Positions 25,610 through 31,578 of a DNA stretch of 35,769 nucleotides are shown in pieces (within the stretch, counting starts at the first letter, position 1; every line of letters begins with the position of its first letter). Location: contig JANXZM010000027.1 in NCBI GenBank assembly GCA_025355505.1, forward strand, positions 1 to 35,769, read 5' to 3'. Made by a program: the position numbers and the translations under genes. Source of the stretch: Acidobacteriaceae bacterium (GTDB taxonomy: Bacteria > Acidobacteriota > Terriglobia > Terriglobales > Acidobacteriaceae). The notes under the pieces were generated by a model, which saw only the letters and a list, made by a program, of their open reading frames with translations, had not been told where the DNA came from and ran no database searches.

Positions 25610-25634
25610 TCCCTACACCATCTTGCTAACACCC

Positions 25635-26477
25635 ATGTTCATCGACTCTCACGCCCATCTCGAAGGCAAGCGTTACGACAGCGATCGCGAAGAAGTATTG
25701 GCGCGTGCAAAACAGAACGGGATCGAAGCCTATCTCGCCATCGGAAACGGCGACGGACCTGACACAGCCGACTGCGGGATTCAGTTGGCTGAAAAATACG
25801 ACGGGAAACCGGAATATCCTCGAATCTGGGCGAGCGTGGGAATTCATCCTCATGAAGCAAACCTTGCGAACGAAGCGGCTGATGCCAAAATGTTGCAATG
25901 GGCCCGGCATCCCCGTGTGATCGCCTGGGGAGAAATCGGCCTGGACTATTTCTACGACCATTCGCCCCGAGAAATGCAGCGGACGGTTTTCCTGAAACAG
26001 ATGGAACTGGCGCGGACGGCGAAGTTGCCCATCATCATTCATTGCCGCCCATCCGACAATAGCGAGAACGCATGGGATGACTGCCTGGCGCTGATCGCCG
26101 AGCACTGGAGCGCCAGCGGATTGGGCGGCATTCTGCACTGCTTCACCGGAAGCGTCGAACATGCGCGACGCGCGCTGGATATGGGTTTCATGATTTCTTT
26201 TGCCGGCAACATCACCTTTCCCAAGGCGCAGACCATTCGGGACGCGGCGCAAATGGTTCCGCTTGACCGCATGCTGATCGAAACCGACTCGCCTTACCTG
26301 GCGCCGATTCCGTATCGCGGCCAGCGCAACGAACCGGCATTTGTGAGGGAAGTGGCCCGCCAGATCGGCGAACTGCGCGGCTTGCCCGCGGAAGAGATCG
26401 GCTCGCGCACCGCGCAGAATTTCTGGAAATTCTTTGGACTTAAGCTGGAAACTCCACATCTCGAAACCCGCGCATAG
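25635..26477 (+). CDS. tatD: TatD-family metal-dependent hydrolase
   Basis: Predicted Mg-dependent DNase/hydrolase of the TatD family. The 280-residue TIM-barrel protein begins MFIDSHAHL (metal-binding HxH) and has GEIGLDYFYD (Glu ligand), IIHCRP and LHCFTGS (His ligands) and ETDSPYLAP (Asp ligand); all ligands are present. The ATG at 25635 is preferred over the frame opening at 25623 because the family starts here. It follows metG, a very common bacterial pairing, which supports both calls. Confidence 0.94.
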   Translation: MFIDSHAHLEGKRYDSDREEVLARAKQNGIEAYLAIGNGDGPDTADCGIQLAEKYDGKPEYPRIWASVGIHPHEANLANEAADAKMLQWARHPRVIAWGEIGLDYFYDHSPREMQRTVFLKQMELARTAKLPIIIHCRPSDNSENAWDDCLALIAEHWSASGLGGILHCFTGSVEHARRALDMGFMISFAGNITFPKAQTIRDAAQMVPLDRMLIETDSPYLAPIPYRGQRNEPAFVREVARQIGELRGLPAEEIGSRTAQNFWKFFGLKLETPHLETRA

Positions 26478-26639
26478 CGAACCTTCGCAGATAATGCCTC
26501 TTCTGTTACCCTCATGGGTACATGTTTGGGGTGTGCGATCCGTGGGACTCTGCATTTCGATCGAGCATCCCTCAGCATGACCCTCTGGAGATTTAGAAGG
26601 CCGTCATTTTTTTGACAGCGGCTTTGACAGTGACATCCC
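26478..26639. other. Short gap before yajQ
   Basis: 162 bases. GTTACCC-TCAT-GGGTAC near 26507-26522 is a small hairpin, and CCGTCA followed by T7 and TGACAGCGG near 26604-26624 is another imperfect one. A promoter for the yajQ-prenyl synthase pair is expected but was not identified. Confidence 0.35.
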
Positions 26640-27137
26640 ATGCCCGATAACAGTTTCGATATCGTCAGCAAGATCGACCTCGCGGAAGTTGCCAACGCCA
26701 TCCAGCAGGCGATGAAAGAAGTTAGCACGCGCTTCGACTTGAAGGACTCGAAGTCACAGATTGCGATGGAAGGAACCGACGCGATCCTGCTTCACTCCGC
26801 CGATGAATTCAAGATGAAGGCAGTGAACGACGTTTTCCAGACGAAGCTGGTGAAACGCGGCGTACCGCTGAAAGGCTTGACCTACGGCCCGCTGGAGCCG
26901 TCCGCCGCAAGCTCGGTGAAACAAAAAATCACCCTGCAACAAGGCATCCCGATCGAAAAAGCAAGAGAGATCGTGAAGCTGGTCAAGAATTCAAAGAGAA
27001 AAGCGCAAGCCTCGATTCAGGGCGATGTAGTGCGGATCAGCAGCAAGGACCGCGACACGCTGCAGGAAGTGATCGCGATGGTCAAGCAGCAGGACTTTGG
27101 CATCGACCTGCAGTTCACGAATTACCGGAGCAACTAA
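26640..27137 (+). CDS. yajQ: YajQ-family nucleotide/c-di-GMP-binding protein
   Basis: Small cytoplasmic protein of the YajQ/DUF520 family; in Xanthomonas a member binds c-di-GMP and works with a transcription factor. The 165-residue length and sequence match the family well: FDIVSKIDLAEVANAIQQA at the N-terminus, STRFDLKDSKS, and the second ferredoxin-like half ending in DFGIDLQFTNYR. The prenyl diphosphate synthase starts five bases after the stop, so the two are cotranscribed, although no functional link is known. Confidence 0.95.
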   Translation: MPDNSFDIVSKIDLAEVANAIQQAMKEVSTRFDLKDSKSQIAMEGTDAILLHSADEFKMKAVNDVFQTKLVKRGVPLKGLTYGPLEPSAASSVKQKITLQQGIPIEKAREIVKLVKNSKRKAQASIQGDVVRISSKDRDTLQEVIAMVKQQDFGIDLQFTNYRSN

Positions 27138-27142
27138 AACAA

Positions 27143-28132
27143 TTGAGTACGACGACGTCCATCAACGGGAAAGAAATATTTGACCTTCTGCGTGACGACA
27201 TTGTCGCGATCGAAGAACAATTCGGACGCGACACGGTCTCCAATGTTGCGGCGATTACGGAGATTGGCGAGTACCTGCGCGTCGGCGGGGGCAAGCGAAT
27301 CCGCCCCGCGCTGTTGCTGCTCTCCGCCAAACTTTTCGGCTACAAGGGCAAGGGCGCGGTAAAGCTCGCTTCCGTCGTCGAGATCATCCACACCGCAACG
27401 CTCGTCCACGACGACATCATCGACGAGGCCCAGGTCCGCCGCGGCCGTCCCGCCGCCAACACGCAGTGGGGCAACTCGATGTGCGTGCTGGCCGGCGATT
27501 GGCTTTACATGCAGGCATTCAAGATCGCGGTGCAGGAGCGCAATTTCCGCATAGTGGACGTGCTGATCGAAGTGACCCAGCAGATGGTCGAAGGCGAACT
27601 ACTCCAGATGGAGAAACTCGGCAAGCTGATCTCTCTGCAGGAGCATCTCGATCTGATCGATCGCAAGACGGCGTGCCTGTTCTCGGTGTGCATGCGAGCC
27701 GGCGGCATCCTGGGCGGCGCCACTGAGCAAGAGGAAGAACGCCTTAGTCAGTACGGACGCGATCTTGGTTTAGCCTTCCAAATCGTGGACGATGTGCTCG
27801 ACCTCACGGCTTCAGAGAGTGTGCTGGGCAAGCCCGTTGCCAGCGACCTGCGTGAAGGTAAAGCCACCATGTCTGTCATTCATGCTCTGGAGCGCTGCAC
27901 CGCCGCCGAGCGCCACCATATCGAGACCATCCTGCACGACCGCGCGTTCAACGGCGTCACCCATGCCGACATCCTGACCATTCTCAACCGTTATGGTTCT
28001 CTCGAATTCGCCTCCAAAGAGGCGGCCCGCTACGCCGAATCCGCACGCCAAGCCATCTGCACCTTCCCAGACTCGGAGATTAAACGCGCGCTGTTGTGGG
28101 CGCCGGAGTTCGTGGTGGCAAGAGAAAAGTAG
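27143..28132 (+). CDS. ispB: Trans-polyprenyl diphosphate synthase (long chain)
   Basis: Elongates farnesyl-type diphosphates with isopentenyl diphosphate to the side chain of menaquinone or ubiquinone. The 329-residue protein has GGGKRIRPAL, the first Asp-rich motif DDIID near 93-97, LAGDWLY, and the second motif QIVDDVLDLT near 213-222. A medium-to-long product is suggested by family resemblance to IspB/HepT; chain length cannot be read with confidence. The start is a TTG at 27143 with GGAG 12 bases upstream. It follows yajQ closely. Confidence 0.92.
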   Translation: MSTTTSINGKEIFDLLRDDIVAIEEQFGRDTVSNVAAITEIGEYLRVGGGKRIRPALLLLSAKLFGYKGKGAVKLASVVEIIHTATLVHDDIIDEAQVRRGRPAANTQWGNSMCVLAGDWLYMQAFKIAVQERNFRIVDVLIEVTQQMVEGELLQMEKLGKLISLQEHLDLIDRKTACLFSVCMRAGGILGGATEQEEERLSQYGRDLGLAFQIVDDVLDLTASESVLGKPVASDLREGKATMSVIHALERCTAAERHHIETILHDRAFNGVTHADILTILNRYGSLEFASKEAARYAESARQAICTFPDSEIKRALLWAPEFVVAREK

Positions 28133-28228: not shown

Positions 28229-28639
28229 CTAGCCCTTCACCGCAATCCCCAGCATCTCAAAACGTCCCTTCATCAGAAGAGTGCCCGATCCCAGAAACGC
28301 GCGGGCGGGAAACTCCCGCGAGAACAGCTTCACGTAGGCAGCGTTGAACCGTTGCCACAAAGAAACATCCGGCGAATAGACCTGCACTCATACCAGGTCG
28401 TCCATTGCCATGCCAGCTTCGCGGAGAACAGACTGGAAGCCGCCAAATAAAAAATCGATCTCGGCATCAATACTCTCTGGCGCGTTGCCAGTCGCCGGGT
28501 CGAGGCCGATCCGTCCGGAGATGTACAGAGTATTGCCCACCAGCACGGCGTCGCTGAAAGGAAGACCGGCGGGACGATTTGGAAGATTGATGTAGCGCCG
28601 GATCGAGGCTGGCAAAAGTTTCTCCTGAAGTCGTATCAC
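28229..28639 (-). pseudogene. RidA-family gene interrupted by one in-frame TGA
   Basis: RidA proteins hydrolyse reactive enamine/imine intermediates. The minus-strand frame reads as a nearly complete RidA-like protein: NTLYISGRIGLDPATGN, FLFGGFQSVLREAGMAMDDL, then TGA at 28390-28388, then without frame change VQVYSPDVSLWQRFNAAYVK and EFPARAFLGSGTLL to a TAG at 28231-28229. The total of about 128-136 codons is a normal length. Everything but the single TGA looks conserved, including the C-terminal FPARAF segment. A TTG at 28615 preceded by AGGAG is the best start; a GTG at 28639 also fits. A nonsense mutation, sequencing error or UGA recoding are possible. Confidence 0.8.
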
Positions 28640-28722
28640 TTTAGCAGGAGTTGTTTCGCCAAGGTCAACCGGACTGGCGCCATTGCGGGATTGTTATACT
28701 GAACAAGCTCCTTCGATCCACA

Positions 28723-29694
28723 ATGACCAACTTGCTCTCGTCGCTTTCGCACCATGGCTACCTGCTCTTAGGGTTGGTCTGCTTCGCGGAGGCGGTCGGC
28801 CTTCCGTTACCCGCCGCGCTCGCCATCCTCACCGCCGGCGCGGTCGCTGCCTACGGAGATCTGCATCTCTATCTCGTGTTCGGCATCGGCACACTGGCGA
28901 TGGTCAGCGGCGATGTCATTCTCTACTTCATGGGCCGAATCAGCGGATGGGCCTTGTTGGGCCTCCTGTGCCGCCTTTCGGCGAATCCGGAAACCTGCAT
29001 TCTGCGATCGGCGGAATATTTCTACCGGCGCGGCAAGCAGACACTGCTTTTTGCCAAGTTCATTCCGGGCATCAACACCATGTCTCCGCCGCTAGCCGGA
29101 AGCATGAAAATGCGTCTCGGCGATTTCCTGATTTACGATGCCCTCGGAGCAATTTTCTACGTGGGCGCATACTCGCTCGCGGGATACCTCTTCAGCGACG
29201 CGCTGCGCGCCATCACGCGCGGACTGCACTCCGCTGGCTTTGCCGCTGAGGTCATCTTCGCCATCGGACTCGCAGCCTACGCTCTCTACCGCATCTGGGT
29301 TTACCGCAAATACCGTCTGCTCGACGTGATTCCTCGCATACCTGCAGAGGAACTAGCCCGAAGACTAGCCTCCGATGCAGTGAAGAACATGCTGATCGCC
29401 GATGTCCGCAGCCACGGCTACTACGATGCCGACTCCGAACGCATTGCGGGATCGATCCGCATTGAACCCAACAACCTCATTGAAGAAGTCAAGCACCTGC
29501 CCAAGGGGCAAGAAATTTATCTCTACTGTACTTGACAACGCGAAGCCACGAGCGCCCGGGTGGCGCACCAATTACAGGATCTCGGATTCAAAGTGTTCGT
29601 CATCGCCGGGGGTCTGCGTGCCTGGCGCAAGGCTGGACACCCCGTCGAACAAGTTCCACACGACGATCTGGTCAAACTACCAACTTTCACCTAG
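28723..29694 (+). CDS. DedA-rhodanese fusion with in-frame TGA at the expected catalytic Cys (possible selenoprotein)
   Basis: Start ATG at 28723. The N-terminal 200 residues form a DedA/SNARE-associated membrane domain (EAVGLPLPAALAILTAGAVA, FAKFIPGINTMSPPLAGSM), a family of lipid or proton-linked transporters. A rhodanese domain begins near 215 (LIADVRSHGYYDADSERIAG) and reaches EIYLYCT, where TGA occurs at 29533-29535 (codon 271). The frame then continues QREATSARVAHQLQDLGFKV, VIAGGLRAWRKAGHPVE and ends at TAG (29692-29694), giving 323 residues. The TGA is six positions before the conserved Ser, as is the catalytic Cys in CxxGxRS. Either Sec is inserted or the gene is cut to a DedA protein with half a rhodanese. 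Related DedA-rhodanese proteins carry YCTC here, from memory. Confidence 0.8.
29552..29566 (+). promoter_or_regulatory. SECIS-like hairpin downstream of the TGA
   Basis: GCGCC (29552-29556) pairs with GGCGC (29562-29566) around a CGGGT loop, with the loop 21 bases after the TGA and a G in its second position, as in bacterial SECIS elements. An alternative stem is GCCAC (29545-29549) with GTGGC (29560-29564). GC-rich coding DNA often gives such stems, so this is weak evidence. Confidence 0.3.
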
Positions 29695-29880: not shown

Positions 29881-31578
29881 TTATTTGCGCTTCTTCTTGG
29901 CCCCGGCCTTCGCCTTCGCTTTAGCAGCTGGCTTCGTAGGCTTGGCTGGCTTACTCGGCTTCTTGATCGCAGGAGCCTTGGTTGGCTTGCTCACCTTGGC
30001 CGCCACAGCAGGCTTCGCTGGCAGTGCCTTTGCAACCGCCACCGGCTTTGCTGGCACCGCAGGCTTCGCTGGCAGTGCCTTTGCAGCCGCCACCGGCTTT
30101 GCTGGCACCGCAGGCTTCGTCGCTGCGGCGAACTTGTCTTTGATCGGGACGACCGGCGCTGCTGGAGCTGCCGCTACTTTTCCCTTGCCCTTAGCGCCCG
30201 GCTTGCCGATCGCCACTGCCGGAGGAGCAACAACAGCAGCGACGGCAGCAGCCTTAGCTCCTCTGCCCCGCTTGGCGGATGGAGGTGGTGGTGGTGGTGG
30301 TGGTGGCGGCGCCAGCGGCTTCAGAAACTTCAGTGTCTCCGTCCGCGAACGCAGCTTGCCATCCAACAAAAGCAAGAAAACATCGTTCGCGATCTTGGGA
30401 TACGTCGGCATCTGCGGCGTGATGCGAAGTTCCGTCATCTCCGGCAACGGAATCTTCTGCTGCACCTGCCGCCACTTGGTGAAGAAATTCTTGATCTTCT
30501 GCGTCACCGCCTGCTTCCGCGCCGTGATCGCCAGAAACAGAATCATCTCGGGACGCGCCGACGACAGCAATTGCCACGTCCGCGAAGGCGTCGCCGCTTC
30601 CTTACCCGATAAGCGTTTGGCGAGGCTGTGCGCGTTCGAATCCAGATCCTTCCACGCCTCGACCAGATCCTTGCGAGGAATCGCCCGGCGCAAATCCGAA
30701 ATATCCTTGTCGCCCAGCCGCTCGGTAAGAAAATGCAGCACCGCCGGCGCCACCTCCGGCGTGTAGCCAAGCTCGTTCATTTGCTGTCGGGTCTTCATCA
30801 GCCCGCCCAATCCGGCCGTGTCCACTTTGGCTACGCTCCAGCGCGGATTCAACACCTTCAGCCATCCCTCTTTTTCGTACGCCTTCAGAACCCCGTGCGC
30901 ATCGTCCTCATACGCCAGTTGTTCGATCTCGTGTCCAATGCTCGAACTGCGGATATGCTCGATATAGTTATTTTCTTTTCCCGATTCATAGCGCGCCTGC
31001 GTCCGCTCTTCAAGCGGCCAATGGAAGCGCGTGCTAAAGCGCGTGGCCCGAATCATCCGCGACGGATCCTCCAGAAACGCGTAGTTATGCAACACGCGGA
31101 TCACTTTGGCTTCGATGTCGGCTACCCCGTTGAACGGATCCATCAACAAGCCGCGCGACCCTTCGTTCAGCGACAGGGCCATGGCGTTTACGGTAAAATC
31201 GCGCCGGCGAAGATCCTCAATAATTGTAGCCGGGGCCATCTGCGGAGCTTTGCCAGGCTTGTCGTAGCGCTCCGACCGCGCCATCCCAATCTCAACCCGC
31301 ACGCCCCCAGGCAGCGTCAGCAGCAAGCTCCGCGTTTCGGCGTCGGCGCCACCAACCACCGCGCCCGCGCGCTCCAAATCTTTCTGCAATTTAAGCGCGT
31401 TGCCCTGAACCGTGAAATCCAGATCGCGGATAGGGAAACCCGTAATGATGTCGCGGATAGCGCCACCAGTAAGATATAGGTTCATCCCAGCCGCCTTGGC
31501 GGTGTCTAGGACGAGCGTGACTGCCTTCTGTTGATCCGGCGTGAGCCGGGTTTCCAGCGTGTATATGTAATCGGCCAT
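29881..31578 (-). CDS. tRNA nucleotidyltransferase/poly(A) polymerase family protein with Lys/Pro/Ala tail
   Basis: Class II nucleotidyltransferase, most likely CCA-adding or a related enzyme. The 565-residue protein has the catalytic signature LTGGAIRD (GG at 38-39, RD at 42-43) followed by RDLDFTV (Asp52, Asp54), then RRRDFTVNAMA and RMIRATRFSTRF, typical of the family. The head and neck end near 420. From about 422 there is a run of ten Pro and then about 130 residues of Ala/Lys/Pro/Val (KPAVPAKPVAAAKALPA repeats, ending AKAGAKKKRK), like histone H1 or AlgP tails. The start ATG is at 31576-31578. Whether it adds CCA, part of it, or poly(A) cannot be told from sequence. Confidence 0.9.
   Translation of the reverse strand: MADYIYTLETRLTPDQQKAVTLVLDTAKAAGMNLYLTGGAIRDIITGFPIRDLDFTVQGNALKLQKDLERAGAVVGGADAETRSLLLTLPGGVRVEIGMARSERYDKPGKAPQMAPATIIEDLRRRDFTVNAMALSLNEGSRGLLMDPFNGVADIEAKVIRVLHNYAFLEDPSRMIRATRFSTRFHWPLEERTQARYESGKENNYIEHIRSSSIGHEIEQLAYEDDAHGVLKAYEKEGWLKVLNPRWSVAKVDTAGLGGLMKTRQQMNELGYTPEVAPAVLHFLTERLGDKDISDLRRAIPRKDLVEAWKDLDSNAHSLAKRLSGKEAATPSRTWQLLSSARPEMILFLAITARKQAVTQKIKNFFTKWRQVQQKIPLPEMTELRITPQMPTYPKIANDVFLLLLDGKLRSRTETLKFLKPLAPPPPPPPPPPSAKRGRGAKAAAVAAVVAPPAVAIGKPGAKGKGKVAAAPAAPVVPIKDKFAAATKPAVPAKPVAAAKALPAKPAVPAKPVAVAKALPAKPAVAAKVSKPTKAPAIKKPSKPAKPTKPAAKAKAKAGAKKKRK
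30008..30119. repeat. 51-base tandem repeat coding for the basic tail
   Basis: GCAGGCTTCG recurs at 30008, 30059 and 30110, giving two nearly identical 51-base units (17 codons) and the start of a third. A separate GGT microsatellite at about 30284-30306 encodes the Pro run. Confidence 0.85.

Follow-up and report, generated by a model that had tools for sequence, protein, structure and literature searches.

Comparative evidence for selenocysteine at an in-frame UGA in a DedA–rhodanese fusion protein of Acidobacteriota

Rhodanese selenoproteins have been catalogued in five forms, the nearest to the protein described here being form 3 (PMC13188914, available in part). The corresponding NCBIfam model, NF041203 (rhodanese_LYCAU, 'rhodanese-like domain-containing protein form 3', CxU), describes a rhodanese with a cysteine two residues before a position held by selenocysteine (Sec) or cysteine; it spans 126 positions and covers the rhodanese domain only. 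Forms 1, 2 and 4 also carry Sec in the rhodanese domain, within UxxS or UxxG motifs, and the available part of the catalogue names no DedA domain for them (PMC13188914). TsoB (NF045694), a rhodanese/DsbD fusion-like selenoprotein, likewise unites a rhodanese, a membrane-type protein and Sec, but it is distinguished by a UxxxxU motif with two Sec residues (PMC13188914, same portion). DedA proteins of COG0586, which include UptA and YghB and belong to the VTT family, are regarded as undecaprenyl-phosphate flippases that depend on a pair of arginines in the second re-entrant helix; rhodanese fusions are reported within this group, and the link between DedA and rhodanese is called unclear (PMC10127716, in the part accessible). 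Fusions annotated as 'DedA family protein/thiosulfate sulfurtransferase GlpE' are described from Proteobacteria, for example PA1209 (PMC12893004, in extract).

The locus considered here lies in a stretch of 35,769 nucleotides from an Acidobacteriaceae bacterium (GCA_025355505.1, JANXZM010000027.1, positions 1 to 35,769), the whole of which is referred to below as the window. The gene encodes a DedA (VTT) domain fused to a rhodanese domain, with a TGA codon in the active-site loop of the latter (Table 1). This is the only in-frame TGA, around which the translation reads ...EIYLYCT-U-QREATSARVA...VIAGGLRAWRKAG..., and the frame is otherwise open. Both domains exceed the gathering scores of their Pfam models and the rhodanese match runs across codon 271, in agreement with the original prediction, made from the sequence alone, that the frame is rhodanese-like on both sides of a single TGA. 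The domain also matches solved rhodaneses, both by sequence (9 distinct PDB sequences with the window protein as query, 22 with a profile) and by fold (40 Foldseek matches in the PDB with E-values no higher than 0.001, which include many rhodanese-domain proteins). There are six rhodanese matches in the genome, and only the one described here has an internal stop.

Table 1. Coordinates of the DedA–rhodanese gene and its features in the window
Feature	Position	Strand	Basis
DedA–rhodanese gene, predicted selenoprotein of 323 aa with Sec at UGA 271, ending at TAG 29692-29694	28723..29694	+	Open frame if TGA is Sec
DedA/VTT membrane domain, residues 34-155	28822..29187	+	Pfam PF09335, 46.3 bits, cut-off 33.9
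Cys83 codon, first Cys of CX8C in DedA domain	28969..28971	+	Cys in 145/146 aligned loci, gap in 1
Cys92 codon, second Cys of CX8C in DedA domain	28996..28998	+	Cys in 146/146 aligned loci
Rhodanese domain, residues 208-303	29344..29631	+	Pfam PF00581, 46.3 bits, cut-off 22.2
Cys269 codon, Cys of C-x-U motif	29527..29529	+	Cys in 146/146 loci
TGA, predicted Sec codon, residue 271	29533..29535	+	TGA 86, TGC 44, TGT 16 of 146 loci
Putative bacterial SECIS hairpin	29552..29566	+	Stem 29552-29556/29562-29566, loop 29557-29561 (CGGGT), 21 nt after TGA

Relative to the described systems, the window protein is closest to NF041203 and adds an N-terminal DedA domain to it. All 23 representatives scanned match this model, which was the best NCBIfam match in each of the five examined fully, but the cut-off of 115 bits is not reached by the window protein (83.9 bits), by the four others (95.7, 90.9, 89.1 and 76.2 bits) or by the best of the 23 (E-value 3.5e-28, from which a score of about 98 bits was judged). 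Against NF045694 (TsoB) the window protein scores 19 bits, the cut-off being 805. The proteobacterial DedA/GlpE fusions (e.g., Xanthomonas sacchari WP_043095768.1) share its domain order, and five plasmid-borne examples align with it at 29-34% identity; all five read YCxC, with cysteine rather than Sec in the loop, which suggests that Sec replaces the second cysteine of an older CxC motif.

The proposal that a DedA protein with a Sec-dependent rhodanese would be a new combination therefore holds only in part. Fusions of DedA with rhodanese were already known (PMC10127716, PMC12893004), and among the rhodanese-related selenoproteins mentioned in the original prediction a CxU form had already been named (NF041203; PMC13188914), as far as the accessible portions of these sources go. 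A DedA protein containing Sec was not encountered: the 2026 catalogue of 119 selenoprotein families has no DedA/VTT member, and the terms DedA, VTT and SNARE are absent from such of its text as was available (PMC13188914). No literature combining selenoprotein, rhodanese and DedA was found, in searches that did not cover preprints and most subscription journals, and no DedA selenoprotein appears in the titles or abstract beginnings among the matches listed for DedA with selenocysteine. A Sec-containing DedA fusion thus seems to be unreported in the literature searched and in the 119-family catalogue. For the phylum itself, the table of a 2006 survey credits Acidobacteria with three selenoprotein families and four proteins (PMC1794560, partial text), and the deep-Sep paper, to the extent available, credits the acidobacterium Occallatibacter riparius with three selenoprotein genes that were known and none that is new. 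With the window gene the selenoprotein catalogue seems to gain a membrane member linked to a transporter, from a phylum with few listed. It may be inferred that standard annotation would tend to truncate such genes at the UGA, so that a conserved protein may be missed.

The TGA is a trait common to many relatives in the Acidobacteriota. A scan of GTDB r220 contigs yielded 16 relatives, each titled as some form of Acidobacteria and each with TGA at codon 271. From the named members among these, the class is inferred to be Terriglobia and the phylum Acidobacteriota. A class-wide search of 399 genomes gave a match in 271, of which the best-scoring 130 loci, from 128 genomes, were compared. In the resulting set of 146 loci, which includes the window (L044) and has no two members identical over the compared stretch, no codon other than TGA, TGC or TGT occurs at this position. 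Species may be shared between part of the 16 contig loci and genomes of the class set. A phylum-wide search of 376 genomes found a match in 68, 27 of them outside the class; the 28 loci examined from it comprise 26 from 25 of these 27 genomes and two from the window's own family, while the matches in the remaining two genomes stop short of the site. TGA is present in 25 of the 28 and cysteine in three (23 and three outside the class). The criterion for a bacterial selenoprotein, that an in-frame UGA aligns with cysteine or UGA in homologues, is satisfied at all 146 loci and at all 28 further ones, so that the comparison of homologues that had been proposed as a check came out in favour of Sec.

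The same counts dispose of the view, raised as the competitor in the original prediction, that the TGA is a recent nonsense mutation, the mark of a pseudogene or a read error. It is true that a single TGA breaks an otherwise open frame, and that the genome is a draft in 119 contigs for which no read check was made. However, independent homologues have the TGA too (86 of 146 loci, the other 60 having cysteine, and 25 of the 28), which refutes this view; the downstream codons are under purifying selection, and all 17 close orthologues compared, the window among them, keep the natural stop at the identical position. The view retains virtually no credibility. Two irregular homologues may be recorded: the start of L043 (from 3001) is poorly readable in the frame used by the remainder and contains a stop, probably owing to a frameshift of the assembly or the gene, and the copy L214 (G567:C53:4751-5680) is reported with two TGA codons inside its match.

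Selection beyond the TGA was compared in the same 17 orthologues, in which dN/dS is 0.102 for the DedA part, 0.13 for the rhodanese part before the TGA and 0.118 for the part after it. As judged from these alignments, the codons after the TGA are constrained as strongly as those before, and the check on downstream constraint was thus met. Codons +4 to +11, where the putative hairpin lies, have a higher dN/dS of 0.206, because pS is low there (0.18 against 0.52-0.63 elsewhere).

A further alternative is that the TGA is a genuine stop, the product being a DedA protein of 270 residues with a clipped rhodanese domain. Ordinary genes in the window, those for methionyl-tRNA synthetase and for nickel insertion, do have TGA as their stop. 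On the other hand, purifying selection acts downstream, relatives with a cysteine codon continue past the site, and in the class set the hairpin described below is kept almost only where the TGA is present, so that a plain stop is scarcely tenable. Nor do the data leave appreciable room, if any, for the UGA encoding some other amino acid through suppression or a changed code: the frame would be open under any sense reading, but TGA serves as a stop in other genes of the window, relatives without it at this site invariably have cysteine, and Sec machinery is present in the genome. A change of code was rejected.

The preferred explanation is that SelB with Sec-tRNA(Sec) would decode UGA 271 as Sec, directed by a short downstream mRNA hairpin (SECIS). 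Of the two hairpins suggested after the TGA, the one whose loop stands 21 nt downstream of it was confirmed and is conserved, whereas the other is not. With the T of the TGA numbered 0, the pairs of the conserved hairpin are 19-33, 20-32, 21-31, 22-30 and 23-29. Free folding of each locus gave mixed structures, and the five fixed pairs, picked after viewing those sequences, were then counted. All five form in 85 of the 86 loci with TGA, as opposed to 4 of the 60 with Cys (a further 14 Cys loci have four), the frequency expected for the same protein with each gene's codon usage being 4.8% in the TGA set and 2.6% in the Cys set. Among the TGA loci a single codon is used throughout for Ala at +7 (GCC, 82/82), for Val at +9 (GTG, 80/80) and for Ala at +10 (GCG, 83/83), with AGC for Ser at +6 in 85 of 86, whereas the majority residues of the Cys set vary synonymously by 1.73 bits (Val+7), 1.68 bits (Val+9), 1.76 bits (Ala+10) and 0.66 bits (Ser+6). 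The second loop base is G in every one of the 86 TGA loci and is always followed by U or G. At pair 21-31 a G-C to A-U replacement in L067-L069 is compensatory, and it changes the protein from Ala to Thr and from Ala to Val; these loci (family code f10) have a distinct hairpin, GCACC-AGGCT-GGTGC, the loop in L069 being AGGTT. Across nine independent Sec/Cys pairs the hairpin differs in the same direction in six to eight (mean 7.5) and in the opposite direction in none (median p 0.008, range 0.008-0.031).

The published model of bacterial SECIS elements asks for an upper stem of 4-16 bp, a loop of 3-9 nt with G in its first two positions, 16-37 nt from the UGA and a minimum free energy of at most -7.5 kcal/mol (PMC13188914, from the portion available). 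The window hairpin has a stem of 5 bp, the loop CGGGU and a spacer of 21 nt, and its 17 nt folded by themselves give -9.1 kcal/mol; it fits this description, yet a competing fold wins in the 45-nt context. Single-sequence folding was considered as evidence in its own right and found weak, since neither fold stands out from shuffles: the 17-nt hairpin alone is not unusually stable (14 of 200 shuffles fold as well, z -1.72), and the 45 nt after the TGA prefer a different fold, which 61 of 200 shuffles equal (z -0.40). The case therefore rests on conservation. Among the 25 TGA loci of the phylum set, 17 have five pairs, six have four and two have three, and the three Cys loci there keep four, which makes the contrast between Sec and Cys weaker. 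The two orthologues with only three of the five common pairs, L208 and L209, may use another SECIS.

The assembly to which the window belongs (119 contigs totalling 4.16 Mb, completeness 96%) was searched for the machinery needed for Sec incorporation, and all four components named in the original prediction are present, each above its cut-off. The tRNA-Sec scores 69.7 bits against a gathering score of 47 and is called SeC(tca) by ARAGORN, the sole other match to the model above that score (47.2 bits) being a tRNA-Ser; SelA scores 540 bits, SelB 387 bits and SelD 267 bits (360 with its second part). Among 14 control genomes the cut-offs were passed in five by the tRNA-Sec model, in one by SelA, in two by SelB and in two by SelD. 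The SelD gene (L024, G000 contig C57, match 28311-28937) itself contains an in-frame TGA, ...AAG-U-ASKLSP, in accord with UxxK, the motif listed for SelD selenoproteins (PMC13188914, in part), which means that a known selenoprotein is also present in the genome. SelD would be the second selenoprotein of this organism.

SelA and SelB were also searched in the same 399 class genomes as the DedA–rhodanese gene. The 70 genomes with TGA have both proteins in 62 cases, one in seven and neither in one (G092, 84% complete, 370 contigs); the 58 genomes with cysteine have both in 26, one in three and neither in 29. At least one of the two thus occurs in 69 of 70 TGA genomes against 29 of 58 Cys genomes (Fisher p = 1.4e-11, which overstates the co-occurrence because related genomes are not independent). 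One genome, G262, has SelA and SelB, yet both of its examined DedA–rhodanese copies (L058 and L111, with TGC and TGT) encode cysteine; these two sit inside mainly TGA clades.

Collectively, the comparative evidence for SECIS-directed Sec at UGA 271 is strong, even though incorporation itself has not been shown and there are no protein or selenium data. That the codon is read as Sec we regard as close to certain; the complete account, a membrane selenoprotein with SECIS-directed decoding and a relay that is only inferred, is marginally less secure but still very probable. The selenoprotein reading offered by the original prediction is strongly supported, and none of the refutation tests that were run went against it.

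The distribution of Sec and cysteine also bears on whether the UGA might act as a selenium-dependent switch, giving the full-length protein when selenium is present and, in its absence, a product of 270 residues in which the DedA domain is complete. At Sec UGAs, insertion of Sec is in competition with termination, and the Sec codon is located after the entire DedA domain, both of which speak for a switch. The tree of the 146 loci (a quick method, with SH-aLRT as the only branch support) demands 12 changes between Sec and Cys, nine of them forced by supported branches; this repeated exchange suggests that the full-length protein is the selected form, and a switch is for this reason improbable, though it is not dismissed. 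The repeated exchanges, together with gain and loss of the SECIS hairpin, form a natural series in which the reason for using Sec can be studied.

If UGA 271 is read as Sec, its exact position in the rhodanese loop is less clear. The TGA had been placed exactly at the catalytic cysteine, the position in the six-residue loop where an active rhodanese carries its nucleophile. This stands when residues are counted back from the conserved Ser, which lies six residues after the TGA, but not in part of the alignments, where Cys269 takes that place; the loop in the window family is two residues longer, between the strand and the Ser, than in classical rhodaneses. Profile alignments put the catalytic-type cysteine of L002, L004, 6mxv domain 1 and 1yt8 domain 2 on residue 271, and that of L003, 6mxv domain 2 and 3tp9 on Cys269 (L001 was not counted); a sequence search with the window protein likewise puts the catalytic cysteine of 6mxv domain 2 on Cys269. 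With the alignments split in this way, the claim that Sec is exactly at the classical catalytic position was lowered to undecided. The nucleophile could be residue 271 or Cys269, the remaining one serving as partner, and sulfurtransferase activity is itself inferred, without assay data. An AlphaFold model built from 16 close sequences, with Sec modelled as Cys, puts residue 271 in a loop between the strand 264-269 and the helix 274-286. The mean pLDDT is 56, with blocks of residues at 63-86 over 201-310 and at 30-55 over 1-200, and because the DedA part is so poorly modelled no claim is made on the distance of Cys83 and Cys92 from residue 271.

Apart from Cys269 and the masked residue 271, the columns of Cys83 and Cys92 are the only ones with cysteine in at least half of the 146 sequences. 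The CX8C string that they form is found in all 28 phylum-set loci and is aligned in four of the five proteobacterial fusions. It is absent from L174 and L176, two other DedA proteins of the window genome (the remaining two of its four other DedA matches, L175 and L177, did not align well enough for a comparison of cysteines). The idea that CX8C is a hallmark of the fusion alone was not upheld, as the non-fused DedA protein L225 has it and the fusion L224 does not.

From these residues a mechanism may be sketched. A selenol at position 271, with Cys269 as partner, would accept sulfane sulfur or become oxidised, and the pair would close as a selenenyl sulfide; the sulfur or redox charge would then pass to the invariant Cys83/Cys92 pair of the DedA domain, whereby rhodanese chemistry would gate or feed the membrane domain. 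A thiol/selenol relay between the two domains remains a tentative inference that we hold to be possible without favouring it, the link to Cys83/Cys92 resting on conservation only and no activity data being at hand. More doubtful is the specific version in which a selenium-driven relay from Sec271 through Cys269 to Cys83/Cys92 would link the chemistry of sulfane sulfur, or redox chemistry, to transport of a lipid or a sulfur compound, the transporter being a DedA protein without the undecaprenyl-phosphate arginine. The pattern of CxU with CX8C makes the link between DedA and rhodanese testable.

As for the cargo, the two arginine positions were located by way of L174 and L176, DedA proteins of the same genome, and not by way of YghB itself. 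The first (112) is Lys in 139 and Arg in seven of the 146 loci. At the second (118), Arg is found in none of the 146, the residues being N in 71, S in 32, G in 31, A in 11 and T in one. The criterion of a flippase for undecaprenyl phosphate, two essential arginines in the second re-entrant helix, is thus not satisfied in these loci, which differ in this respect from UptA and YghB; with the second arginine missing throughout, the predicted cargo is probably something other than undecaprenyl phosphate handled in the classical way.

The surroundings of the gene suggest a different role, in which the rhodanese head would donate sulfur or selenium for maturation of the molybdenum cofactor and the DedA domain would be a mere anchor. 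What points to it is a gene for a MocA-like NTP transferase, which comes next on the same strand in 13 of the 16 close relatives (sequence clustering gives 12 of them and Pfam adds L034, three of the 13 being identified by Pfam), at distances from an overlap with the stop up to about 365 nt. In the window, however, the MocA-like gene is not adjacent, and what follows is a gene of poly(A)-polymerase type on the opposite strand. Two MocA-like proteins were scanned, and their scores of 124 and 117 bits fall short of the cut-off, which is 186; the strong conservation of the DedA core and its cysteine pair also speaks against a mere anchor. A donor role for the cofactor is consequently unlikely, without being ruled out.

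Directly downstream in the close relatives, the MocA-like gene (13/16) is accompanied by one for a HAD hydrolase (14/16), as at L030:3995-5418 and L033:3977-5540, and both are absent from that place in the window. Upstream, at 25623-28132 of the window, are genes for TatD, YajQ (DUF520) and a polyprenyl synthetase, the last two recurring in 12 and TatD in 10 of the 16 close relatives, some of whose flanks are short. The nearest upstream gene in the window is about 590 nt away, and no operon is therefore claimed. The poly(A)-polymerase-type gene, on the minus strand, has a 3' end (29881-30200) that looks repetitive by eye.
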